Shown: piece after piece, positions 6,293 through 24,997 of the stretch
Numbering within the stretch: position 1 is the stretch's first letter
Layout: each line of letters begins with the position of its first letter
Virus record (IMG/VR): IMGVR_UViG_3300021964_000447
Location: 1 to 26,063 of that record
Source of the DNA: a virus
Reading direction: 5' to 3' (one strand)
Length of the DNA: 26,063 nt
Position numbers and translations under genes: made by a program
The notes under the pieces: generated by a model
The model's input: only the letters and a program-made list of their open reading frames with translations
Database searches by the model: none
Told to the model about the DNA's origin: nothing

Positions 6293-6632
6293 TTTTGAAA
6301 TCTTCGGCTAATGCCGACTCAATCTCGCTTCCTACACCGTTGAGTGTATTAAGTTCTGCAAATATTAAATCAATGACTGTTGCGTCTTTTTCATAGAGTT
6401 CATCTATTGCTTCGTCAGTTAACTTAGGCTCTACAACACTTGCTATTAGAAGTGCTTTTTGATAATCAAATGCGTCTGTTTGTTCGCCATTGATTAATCG
6501 ACCTAATTCGATTTGCATTTTTTTAGATATGCCTTTTACCTTTATAGAGACATTCCATTGTGGAATATCAATAGTCTTGGTTGGCACATCAGGTAATGAC
6601 TTGATGTCATCTAAGTTTAAAATTTTCGCCAT
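6288..6632 (-). CDS. Tail assembly chaperone (GpG-like part)
   Basis: 114 residues, starting MAKILNLDDIKSLPDVPTKT. It is acidic, with no membrane segment and no Cys. It lies between tail-tube and tape measure genes, the fixed place of the tail chaperone. Its C-terminal end AEDFKS-stop overlaps a second frame that encodes the GpT-like domain, the classic two-product layout (short form alone, long form by frameshift). The chaperone holds the tape measure during tube assembly and is absent from virions. The start follows a GGAGAG Shine-Dalgarno. Function rests on order plus the frameshifted partner rather than on sequence similarity of this half. Confidence 0.85.
   Translation of the reverse strand: MAKILNLDDIKSLPDVPTKTIDIPQWNVSIKVKGISKKMQIELGRLINGEQTDAFDYQKALLIASVVEPKLTDEAIDELYEKDATVIDLIFAELNTLNGVGSEIESALAEDFKS
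6290..6300 (-). other. Probable +1 programmed frameshift site
   Basis: On the minus strand the overlap reads GAT TTC AAA AGC TAA. A lysyl-tRNA on AAA (6296-6294) could slip one base forward onto the next AAA of the A4 run, changing AGC-TAA into GCT-AAT. The only window in which both frames are open is about 20 bases (6307-6288), so the shift must happen here. Other phage chaperones mostly use -1 slippery heptamers, but +1 and -2 cases are known in the literature. The exact slip is inferred. Confidence 0.6.
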
Positions 6633-8457: not shown

Positions 8458-8784
8458 TTATTTATGTTTGATTGAACACCTTTTTGAACAAGTAGCAAAA
8501 GAAAAATTGTCATAGTCTTTAACCATATATGGCAACCTATTATAATCTTTCAAAAATTTAAGAGTCTCTTTTGAATAAGGTGTTTTAGATTCTGTGTAAT
8601 AAACTGTATAAACTGTGTGCCAATGAGTATAAACAGTATCTAATTCATTAAGTTTTTTATTACAAGTATCACATTCAGACCAACCGTCAAAATTATCTTC
8701 TCGAACAACTTTAGGAGTATTGTAATTTCTAGTCATATAAGTATGTGTGTAACGTTTTTTGTCATTTTTAATTGTTTCATTCAT
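8458..8784 (-). CDS. Accessory zinc-finger-like protein of unknown function
   Basis: 108 residues starting MNETIKNDKKRYTHTYM. An open frame runs 12 codons further upstream, but it passes over the palindromic operator and -10 box, so the start is placed at MNET. Cys pairs CDTC (residues ~39-42) and CSKRC near the C-terminus could bind one zinc. The gene is wedged between the gp6-like connector and the gp10-like protein, its own promoter lies upstream, and a terminator precedes that. No Shine-Dalgarno is seen before MNET, so it may be translated from an almost leaderless mRNA. Base use is richer in A+T than the flanking virion genes. It looks like a moron inserted into the late operon. Confidence 0.7.
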   Translation of the reverse strand: MNETIKNDKKRYTHTYMTRNYNTPKVVREDNFDGWSECDTCNKKLNELDTVYTHWHTVYTVYYTESKTPYSKETLKFLKDYNRLPYMVKDYDNFSFATCSKRCSIKHK

Positions 8785-8794
8785 AAGTACATTA

Positions 8795-8807
8795 TAATCA
8801 TAGATTA
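8795..8807 (-). promoter_or_regulatory. Palindromic operator over -10 box, TAATCNNNGATTA copy 1
   Basis: The minus strand reads TAATCTATGATTA, a 13-bp palindrome with a three-base centre. CATAAT just upstream can serve as the -10 box and TTGTAA, 16 bases further, as the -35. The gene start ATGAATGAAAC lies 11 bases downstream. The same palindrome stands before five or more other genes of the window, so a shared regulator is likely. Confidence 0.65.
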
Positions 8808-8840: not shown

Positions 8841-8869
8841 AAAAAAAAGCTCAATGTTTATAGGCTTTT
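8841..8869 (-). terminator. Intrinsic terminator before the accessory gene
   Basis: Minus strand: AAAAGC, a 13-base spacer, GCTTTTTTTT, i.e. a weak A/T-closed stem followed by eight U. It lies after the stop of the connector gene and before the promoter of the accessory gene. Its upstream half belongs to a 20-base sequence that is repeated exactly at 21121-21140. Confidence 0.5.
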
Positions 8870-8871
8870 AT
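8852..8871. repeat. 20-base exact repeat, copy 1
   Basis: CAATGTTTATAGGCTTTTAT occurs here and again at 21121-21140 in the same orientation. In both places it lies 40-60 bases before a TAATCNNNGATTA promoter on the minus strand. It may be a remnant of the end of a mobile cassette or a shared terminator arm. Confidence 0.7.
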
Positions 8872-8888
8872 TACTTATTTAAAAATAA

Positions 8889-13037: not shown

Positions 13038-13063
13038 TTCGTCTCCTTTTGTTATTTCATTCA

Positions 13064-13098
13064 TAATCAGAGATTACTACAAATAAAAAACAATGCAA
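13064..13098 (-). promoter_or_regulatory. Promoter and palindromic operator, TAATCNNNGATTA copy 2
   Basis: Minus strand: TTGCAT (13098-13093), a 16-base spacer, TAATCT, forming the palindrome TAATCTCTGATTA (13076-13064). Seven bases after the -10 lies the A of ATGAATGAAATAAC, so the transcript would begin right at the leader. The same TTGCAT-16-TAATCT arrangement is at 14330-14364. Confidence 0.75.
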
Positions 13099-13125: not shown

Positions 13126-13221
13126 GCAGATAGCAGTAGCTTCGGAGTTTAGATGAATGAATGAAACAAAGCTACTGCTTCAATATCTGCTTTGTAACTA
13201 GGTACAGGGAATGAAACCTAG
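13126..13221. ncRNA. Two-hairpin element with loops carrying the leader complement (candidate RNA)
   Basis: Hairpin A: GCAGATA plus GCAGTAGCTT (13126-13142) pair with AAGCTACTGC (13169-13178) and TATCTGC (13184-13190). This gives a 17-bp stem with one five-base bulge and a 26-base loop (13143-13168). Hairpin B: CTAGGT (13198-13203) pairs with ACCTAG (13216-13221) around a 12-base loop. The loops read ATGAATGAATGAAAC and GGAATGAAA on the plus strand. On the minus strand they read GTTTCATTC, the complement of the leader found at accessory genes. No obvious promoter is seen on either strand, so transcription is inferred. About 190 bases here hold no gene. Confidence 0.45.
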
Positions 13222-13240
13222 CCACAATTTTATAATAACA

Positions 13241-13345
13241 TTAAATGTGTCCTCTGTTACAGTCGTAGCAAAGTTCAGTTTCTCCGTCCATAAGTTTTAC
13301 TTCATCACAGATTTTGCAGGTATTGTTTTCTTTAATCAAGCTCAT
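13241..13345 (-). CDS. 34-residue double-CxxC zinc-ribbon peptide
   Basis: ATG 13345 lies inside the end of the preceding gene (overlap 13332-13345) and follows a GGAGAC Shine-Dalgarno. It encodes MSLIKENNTCKICDEVKLMD followed by GETELCYDCNRGHI. Two CxxC pairs 14 residues apart can bind one zinc. It is the last of a chain of six tiny overlapping genes; its stop is followed by the hairpin element. No family is recognised; candidate roles are protein-protein contact or nucleic-acid binding. Confidence 0.65.
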   Translation of the reverse strand: MSLIKENNTCKICDEVKLMDGETELCYDCNRGHI

Positions 13346-14329: not shown

Positions 14330-14364
14330 TTGCATAAGATTTCATACCTGCTAATCTTAGATTA
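14330..14364 (+). promoter_or_regulatory. Promoter and palindromic operator, TAATCNNNGATTA copy 4
   Basis: TTGCAT (14330-14335), a 16-base spacer and TAATCT (14352-14357), with the perfect palindrome TAATCTTAGATTA (14352-14364). The seventh base after the -10 is the A of ATGAATGAAAC. It has the same spacing as the promoter at 13064-13098. It drives the plus-strand cassette 14391-15133. Confidence 0.75.
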
Positions 14365-14390
14365 TGAATGAAACAAATAAAGGAAATAAA

Positions 14391-20544: not shown

Positions 20545-21054
20545 TTAAGAAATTATCTCTCTCCAAGATTTAGTAAATTTCTTCCATTCTTTATATTCAT
20601 TAGATGTAAATTCATTTCTAAATTCATTCCAATCATTATGATATTCTTTACTATCAAATCCTAATTGTAAAAATCTATGCTCATTATTTTTTAGGATTAC
20701 TTTGTTACCATTTAGAAAAGCACCTTTTTTAACTTGAACTATTACATAAGCAATTTTATTTTCTTTTTCTAATTCAACATAGTAATAATCTTTTAGTTGT
20801 TTTTCCATACCAAGTTGAATTCCTTGACCAAAATCTGTAACATTTAAAAATATTTTTTCTTCGTTGTCAATGTCATCATTGCTTCCGATAAGCAAACCTC
20901 TTAAAGCAACAAATTCATTTTTTACTTCTTCTTTTAAATTTAATGTTTCAAATAATTCACAAGTGTTTGTAACTTTGTAACCAAGTTCTTGAAGTTCTTT
21001 TAGAACTTTAACTTTGTTGATATTAAATTCTGTGTTGGTCTTTGTTTCATTCAT
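20545..21054 (-). CDS. Accessory protein of unknown function (169 residues)
   Basis: Starts MNETKTNTEFNINKVKVLKE at the ATG of the leader (ATGAATGAAACAAAG), the only in-frame start before the first residues. No Shine-Dalgarno is seen, so an almost leaderless start is likely. Charged and alpha-beta in composition: KVLKELQELGYKVTNTCELF, then 'FLNVTDFGQGIQLGMEKQLK', and a C-terminal helix DSKEYHNDWNEFRNEF. One Cys only. It sits between the replication gene and small terminase, with its own promoter, operator and terminator. Function not recognised. Confidence 0.7.
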   Translation of the reverse strand: MNETKTNTEFNINKVKVLKELQELGYKVTNTCELFETLNLKEEVKNEFVALRGLLIGSNDDIDNEEKIFLNVTDFGQGIQLGMEKQLKDYYYVELEKENKIAYVIVQVKKGAFLNGNKVILKNNEHRFLQLGFDSKEYHNDWNEFRNEFTSNEYKEWKKFTKSWREIIS

Positions 21055-21069
21055 ACTTATATTTAACTA

Positions 21070-21084
21070 TAATCTACGATTATA
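21070..21084 (-). promoter_or_regulatory. Palindromic operator with TATAAT -10, copy 5
   Basis: Minus strand TATAATCGTAGATTA: a consensus -10 box TATAAT (21084-21079) shares bases with the palindrome TAATCGTAGATTA (21082-21070). A TTGCAT element lies immediately upstream. The start ATGAATGAAAC of the 169-residue gene is 16 bases downstream. Confidence 0.7.
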
Positions 21085-21120
21085 TGCAAATTTAGTTAGT
21101 ATTTCTGCAACTAAAAATCC

Positions 21121-21140
21121 CAATGTTTATAGGCTTTTAT
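21121..21140. repeat. 20-base exact repeat, copy 2
   Basis: Same 20 bases as at 8852-8871, in the same orientation. On the minus strand the next bases are GGGATTTTT, which could close a hairpin (AAAAGCC with GGG/TTTT). To the right a run of A/T-only blocks (21141-21180) follows; it holds no gene and could melt easily. Confidence 0.7.
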
Positions 21141-21168
21141 AAATTTTTTTTATTTTTTTTGTAAATTT

Positions 21169-23356: not shown

Positions 23357-23375
23357 TAATCTCAGATTAATTATA
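23357..23375 (-). promoter_or_regulatory. Palindromic operator with TATAAT -10, copy 6
   Basis: Minus strand TATAAT (23375-23370) is directly followed by TAATCTGAGATTA; with the flanks TTAATCT-G-AGATTAA it is a 15-bp perfect palindrome (23356-23370). The leader downstream reads TTAATGAAACGGAG, sharing AATGAAAC with the other leaders. Confidence 0.68.
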
Positions 23376-24936: not shown

Positions 24937-24949
24937 TAATCTAAGATTA
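24937..24949 (+). promoter_or_regulatory. Palindromic operator with TATAAT -10, copy 8
   Basis: TATAATCTAAGATTA: TATAAT at 24935-24940 shares bases with the palindrome TAATCTAAGATTA (24937-24949). The leader ATGAATGAAATAAC follows at 24964. That ATG opens only a 13-codon frame that stops at 25003-25005, so here the leader is not the start of the real gene. Confidence 0.7.
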
Positions 24950-24997
24950 TGTATAATTTTAATATGAATGAAATAACAAAAATGATTGGAGATAACA

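Follow-up and report, generated by a model that had tools for sequence, protein, structure and literature searches.

The c4 RNA of phages P1 and P7 is a structured phage RNA with loops complementary to the ribosome-site region of a phage mRNA (PMC12197685), and it is also listed in PMC2864571. The sar and sas RNAs of P22 are small phage antisense RNAs that act at the translation of phage genes (PMC12197685). VpdS of VP882, PreS of lambda and 24B_1 of phi24B are trans-acting phage RNAs that control mRNAs of the phage and/or the host; of these, VpdS and PreS require Hfq, and their targets include host mRNAs or sRNAs. Known phage antisense RNAs are mostly single-target switches. Moron cassettes are self-contained accessory genes that carry their own promoter and terminator.

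We examined a window of 26,063 bases, corresponding to IMG/VR record IMGVR_UViG_3300021964_000447 from an uncultivated phage, for an element that is probably a trans-acting antisense RNA, judging by its sequence and that of its relatives: it would pair with the translation starts of dispersed accessory cassettes and most likely repress them. Similarly to c4, its loops are complementary to the ribosome-site region of the targets, according to our computation; c4, however, acts on ant in its own immunity region, whereas the leader addressed here is common to many dispersed, unrelated genes. The sar and sas RNAs act on one mRNA each (ant and sieB), while many targets were predicted here, mostly distant from the RNA. 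The element would act in trans as VpdS, PreS and 24B_1 do, but unlike those of VpdS and PreS, its predicted targets are a phage regulon defined by a single common start sequence. Finally, the targets resemble morons in having their own palindromic promoter, a gene and often a terminator.

The window contains siphovirus-type head, tail and replication genes, nearly all of them on the minus strand. No nucleotide relatives of the window were found among phage isolates, and the capsid protein search recovered remote relatives only (<33% identity). The two hairpins that the earlier note had placed at positions 13126-13221 were confirmed, with the sequence as described. The element is located between a zinc-ribbon-like ORF and a 153-aa gene (13064-12603, minus strand). 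The ORF (MSLIKENNTCKICDEVKLMDGETELCYDCNRGHI; 34 codons, 13345 to about 13241, minus strand) was not listed before and shortens the gene-free gap from the 190 bases first given to ~176; it has four cysteines in CxxC pairs and, from its sequence, likely encodes a zinc ribbon. It is conserved, directly upstream of the RNA, in the window's clade only. In all contexts the element comes after the final gene of a block, while gene content differs on both sides, and in some contigs the tail-terminator gene comes directly after it in the same direction. That gene, in the window (12543) and in the relatives, has a promoter-like TTGTTATAGTAAACCTATG and almost no 5' leader, which suggests that starts with little or no leader are frequent in these phages.

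The minus strand of the element folds at -40.7 kcal/mol (z -7.2), a value that none of 200 shuffled sequences equalled, and the plus strand at -35.5 kcal/mol (z -4.5). We annotated the predicted structured RNA at 13126-13228 on the minus strand, with its 5' end near 13225. Hairpin 1 (13192-13227) has a 12-bp stem, UUGUGGCUAGGU/ACCUAGUUACAA, and a 12-nt loop, UUCAUUCCCUGU, whose conserved portion is CCCUGU. Hairpin 2 (13126-13190) consists of the outer pairs GCAGAU/AUCUGC, a 5-nt bulge, an inner stem of 13 bp and a 22-nt loop. The stem of 17 bp with a 26-base loop reported previously is valid for the plus strand, but on the minus strand it becomes 6 + 13 pairs with a 22-nt loop, a U-G pair extending the inner stem to 13. 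The other hairpin, given with a 6-bp stem and a 12-base loop, has 12 pairs and a 12-nt loop on the minus strand, where two G-U pairs are added.

Exact stem and loop patterns recovered the element in 20 viral contigs and a relaxed loop pattern in 55, and a search with the neighbouring tail-terminator protein added forms with an altered hairpin 1 and loop, giving a family of ~62 IMG/VR contigs with 18 distinct sequences. The covariance model found one copy per phage (where checked), on the minus strand. A scan of genome contigs gave two matches without stems, which we judged to be chance, and GTTTCATTC occurring twice at a distance was discarded as a search pattern because it produced mostly chance matches. 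Rfam was searched at gathering score and with E values up to 10, and only chance snoRNA-like matches were returned. No match to the c4 model (RF01695) was obtained at gathering score or among the weak matches, and no match to antirepressor families was detected among the element's neighbours and the target genes tested. On this sequence comparison, the two hairpins are a conserved RNA family absent from Rfam and, given the lack of a model match and of an antirepressor target, not a member of c4.

Both stems vary among the relatives with compensatory changes, the observation whose absence had been named in the earlier note as grounds for rejecting the element. The inner stem of hairpin 2 occurs as AGCAGTAGC, AGCTGACCC, AGCAGACGC or AGCTGACGC with matching partners; all 304 of 304 cells are paired, there are double changes in 4 pairs, and the covariation score is 0.214 vs 0.058 in shuffled alignments. 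Hairpin 1 is represented by GGCTAGGT/ACCTAGTT, GATTAGGT/ACCTAATT, GTTCGAT/ATTGAAC, CTGAAT/ATTCAG, GTTGAAT/ATTCAAC and GTTTAAT/ATTAGAC, with 95% of cells paired, double changes in 6 out of 7 core pairs and a score of 0.90 vs 0.27 shuffled. Both scores collapse when the partners are slid. While the stems change wholesale, the 13 bases of UUUGUUUCAUUCA, most of them in the loop, are invariant across the 18 forms and exactly complementary to UGAAUGAAACAAA; ACUCC is also kept. The fixed parts of hairpin 2 are GCAG.T/ATCTGC, UUUGUUUCAUUCA and ACUCCGAAG, and hairpin 1 usually keeps CCCUGU. GTTTCATTC had been described as exposed twice, and it is present in both hairpins of the window, but the G and the first T of the hairpin 1 copy are paired. 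This copy is not kept in most relatives, which have CAATTCCCTGT, AAATACCCTGT or ACCCTGT in hairpin 1, so the argument for selection from the same core in two loops does not hold.

Reading the aligned stems as minus strand gives 28 G-U cells vs 1 A-C cell, and the covariance model scores 102.5 bits on the minus strand of the window vs 19.5 on the plus strand, which is near noise. Whatever genes lie upstream, a -10-like box (TAAGAT, TAATAT, TAACAT, TATTAT or TAAACT, mostly after TGY) precedes the base of hairpin 1 by 6-7 nt, and several forms have TTGCAC 16 nt further upstream of it. An independent scan of the window found the corresponding putative promoter at 13232-13260 on the minus strand (GTAACA-17 nt-TATTAT, with TG before the -10). 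We therefore place the RNA on the minus strand, because of the wobble pairs and the conserved extended -10 box at the hairpin 1 base. As expected of a trans-acting sRNA, the element appears to have a promoter of its own, its secondary structure is conserved, and it lies away from several predicted targets, which have a complementary site in common near their 5' end or start. An intrinsic terminator, that is a GC-rich hairpin directly followed by a U tract, was not found in the scan of the window, where no U tract follows the stem; some relatives have U5 after the stem, and the 3' flanks vary across relatives.

The claim that the large loop region contains the complement of the leader was borne out: TTTGTTTCATTCAT at 13157-13170 is the exact complement of ATGAATGAAACAAA; ten of its bases fall in the loop and four in the loop-closing pairs. 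On the minus strand, this is the antisense core UUUGUUUCAUUCAU (13157-13170), fully complementary to AUGAAUGAAACAAA, and 13 of its 14 bases are invariant across the 18 forms. Allowing up to 3 mismatches, ATGAATGAAACAAA was found 25 times in the window vs 10.4 expected (2.4-fold), a number reached in 0 out of 100 shuffles. The target motif is ATGAATGAAA(C/T)AA, and it lies from immediately after to ~20 nt past the palindromic promoter TAATCNNNGATTA, which itself has TTGCAT/TTGTAT about 17 nt upstream. In the element phages, TGAATGAAA(C/T) is present at 51 out of 72 distinct promoter starts; the remaining starts listed include several ATGAATGAATTAAT, which fit the loop in another register, and several promoters that were read backwards. 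Two accessory leaders in these phages are AUGAAAGAAAC, with one mismatch. Matches of at least 10 bases to the loop complement exceeded those of shuffled loops in all 8 records tested (the count was reached by 5 or fewer of 200 shuffles), and most of them were located at promoters or gene starts. For the window's loop and its own leaders, the summed match was 62 vs 29.6 for shuffled loops (0 out of 2000 shuffles). Not all leaders ranked top in whole-genome duplex energies.

The genes after the motif belong to 29 protein families that show no similarity to one another. The motif is out of the gene's frame or upstream of the gene in four or five of the 29, which argues that it is kept as RNA and not as peptide. 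Often AAGGAG and a second ATG come after it, which makes it a 5' leader in those genes; in other genes it holds the start codon, and in many of them the only plausible start codon is within it. In one contig (3300017745_000589, ~6464-6491, minus strand) we observed the motif twice in one gene, in the leader and at a second start after AAGGAG. The A-rich motif, often a coding start as well, could also favour translation by itself.

In the window, ATGAATGAAACAAA occurs as a target at 14364-14377 (plus strand), at the start of a 206-aa gene and directly after the promoter palindrome TAATCTTAGATTA. Three more predicted targets are on the minus strand, each where a gene starts: ATGAATGAAACAAAG (15-nt match, 21040-21054) for a 169-aa gene, ATGAATGAAACAA (13-nt match, 8772-8784) for a 108-aa gene, and ATGAATGAAA (10-nt match, 13055-13064) for the 153-aa gene that lies immediately downstream of the RNA. 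Another 10-nt match (24964-24973, plus strand) belongs to the leader of a 52-aa gene and has the motif in another frame. The target genes tested had no confident Pfam or PHROG match. Palindromic promoters TAATCNNNGATTA precede accessory genes at 13064-13076 (minus), 14352-14364 (plus), 21070-21082 (minus), 8795-8807, 24937-24949 and 23357-23369. An inverted repeat, ATTTATAGTGATTTTCACTATAAAT, is found just upstream of the palindromic promoter in several contigs and is perhaps an operator for a phage regulator. Hairpins resembling AAAGCCTATAAACATTGGGCTTTT with T runs are located upstream of cassette promoters at many loci (8844-8880 and 21113-21149 in the window); these hairpins before the genes and GCCACCTACATTGGTGGCTTTTTT after them point to a terminator-promoter-gene-terminator layout.

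Based on these data, we infer that an extended -10 promoter of the element itself would drive minus-strand transcription of a small RNA of ~100 nt, and that the hairpin 2 loop would pair in trans with the target mRNAs, at their 5' end or start region, over AUG AAU GAA ACA AA. The pairing site would usually lie just upstream of, or at, the ribosome site, where the duplex would block 30S loading and might also recruit RNase III. One RNA would thereby reduce expression across the whole dispersed cassette set, and incoming cassettes with the standard promoter and leader would be controlled immediately. A second possible pairing site lies around AACUCC (13144-13150, minus strand), a ribosome-site complement that reads AUCAACUCC in most relatives; in the main clade, a few accessory or early genes have ribosome sites (GGAGUUGAU) complementary to AUCAACUCC in the loop, and this second seed is supported in that clade and weaker in the window's clade. 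That pairing would repress the targets and not activate or stabilise them is suggested by the position of the site and is the least certain step.

It is unlikely that the RNA instead activates or protects the leader mRNAs, e.g. by shielding their 5' ends, or mainly targets co-infecting relatives or host mRNAs. The frequent position of the motif upstream of a separate SD (AAGGAG) and second ATG agrees with such a role, since the SD need not be covered, and, as related phages have the motif, they too would be affected by the RNA; pairing should nevertheless block the many genes with their only plausible start codon inside the motif, and complementarity of AUCAACUCC to GGAGUUGAU points to inhibition. 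Another explanation, which we consider quite improbable, is that the hairpins are only a 3'-end structure of the upstream operon (a transcription barrier, an attenuator or an mRNA stabiliser) and that the loop match is incidental. The constant position after the last gene of a block, the U5 of some relatives, and the location directly before the tail-terminator gene in some contigs, a place that holds a typical terminator (GCCACCTACATTGGTGGCTTTTTT) in others, are all in line with it. The window, however, has neither a U tract nor a terminator prediction, an invariant 13-base loop core is not required of a terminator, the conserved promoter stands immediately before hairpin 1, and the complementarity far exceeds chance.

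The earlier note had proposed three readings, a minus-strand antisense RNA, a plus-strand decoy and a degraded cassette start, and it is the antisense RNA that is supported by the covariation, the invariant loop core, the conserved promoter and the many targets. A decoy transcript, whose loop would carry the leader sequence and compete for a leader-binding protein or RNA, is very unlikely: the plus strand does fold, and CGGAGTTGATTGCTGAATGAATGAAACAAAG in its loop looks similar to a ribosome site plus start, but the G-U excess and the -10 box belong to the minus strand, the plus side has a variable flank without a conserved promoter, the plus covariance score is near noise, and the short plus ORFs vary in length (14-30 aa). 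With intact copies in ~62 contigs, a degraded cassette start is refuted as a description of what the element does at present. An inverted copy of a cassette start is still plausible as its origin, since the whole loop complement (CGGAGUUGAU..GAAUGAAUGAAACAAAG) resembles a cassette ribosome site plus start. Finally, we give very little credence to an element acting as DNA, either as a site of cassette recombination or exchange or as a single-stranded structure for replication or packaging. The element does stay in place while gene content varies on both sides, and its 3' junction is sharp at GCTATCTGC, but such an element would not be expected to keep G-U pairs, a -10 box at a constant distance or a loop that complements dispersed gene starts, the cassettes are not flanked by copies, and the covariance model gives one copy per phage. 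The sharp junction was also considered as the end of a mobile element and rejected, given that both flanks vary and each phage has one copy.

The two-hairpin element was not found in the sister clade (L005, L007, L009 and L218-L224; tail terminator 78-79% identical). The cassettes of this clade start with ATGAAAGAAA or ATGAAAACAAAC and never with ATGAATGAAA, the motif being at 0 promoter starts; as this compares one clade that carries the element with one that lacks it, both element and leader type are confounded with phylogeny. In a similar place, these phages have another hairpin, with a 14-pair stem (GCAGRGACUCUUAG/CUARGGGUYUCUGC, read by hand) and a 25-nt loop, GUCUUUCUUUAAAUUCCCUUUGUUU; it was seen in L218-L224, G001 (~4521) and G002 (~11361), with G-U/A-U variation in the stem. 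It is a possible functional analogue with its own leader type. The GUCUUUCUUUAAAUUCCCUUUGUUU loop has 9-nt matches to its own leaders (AGAAACAAA and AAACAAAGG; 9 of 2000 and 6 of 2000 shuffles) and fits the window's leaders less well, and the sister-clade leaders were not among the top duplex matches. The co-change of loop and leader between clades is therefore suggestive and not proof, and we do not claim a clean covariation, considering the modest shuffle support and the duplex ranking. In more distant relatives (67-72% identity), no palindromic promoters or motif were found in the stretches examined.

We know of no published case of moron cassettes with a common RNA leader read by one antisense RNA, and a literature search restricted to papers outside subscription found no report of such a regulon. 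As a tentative extension, the element could be a master RNA for modular accessory genes, and the co-change of loop and leader (in the sister clade, leader AUGAAAGAAAC and a different hairpin with UUUGUUUCU) could create compatibility groups that decide whether the cassettes of co-infecting phages are silenced. If the antisense RNA is real, it would define a post-transcriptional regulon within a phage, in which one RNA acts against the start sequence of ~29 unrelated accessory families, and it would provide a mechanism by which phages tolerate and control fast-changing cargo genes.
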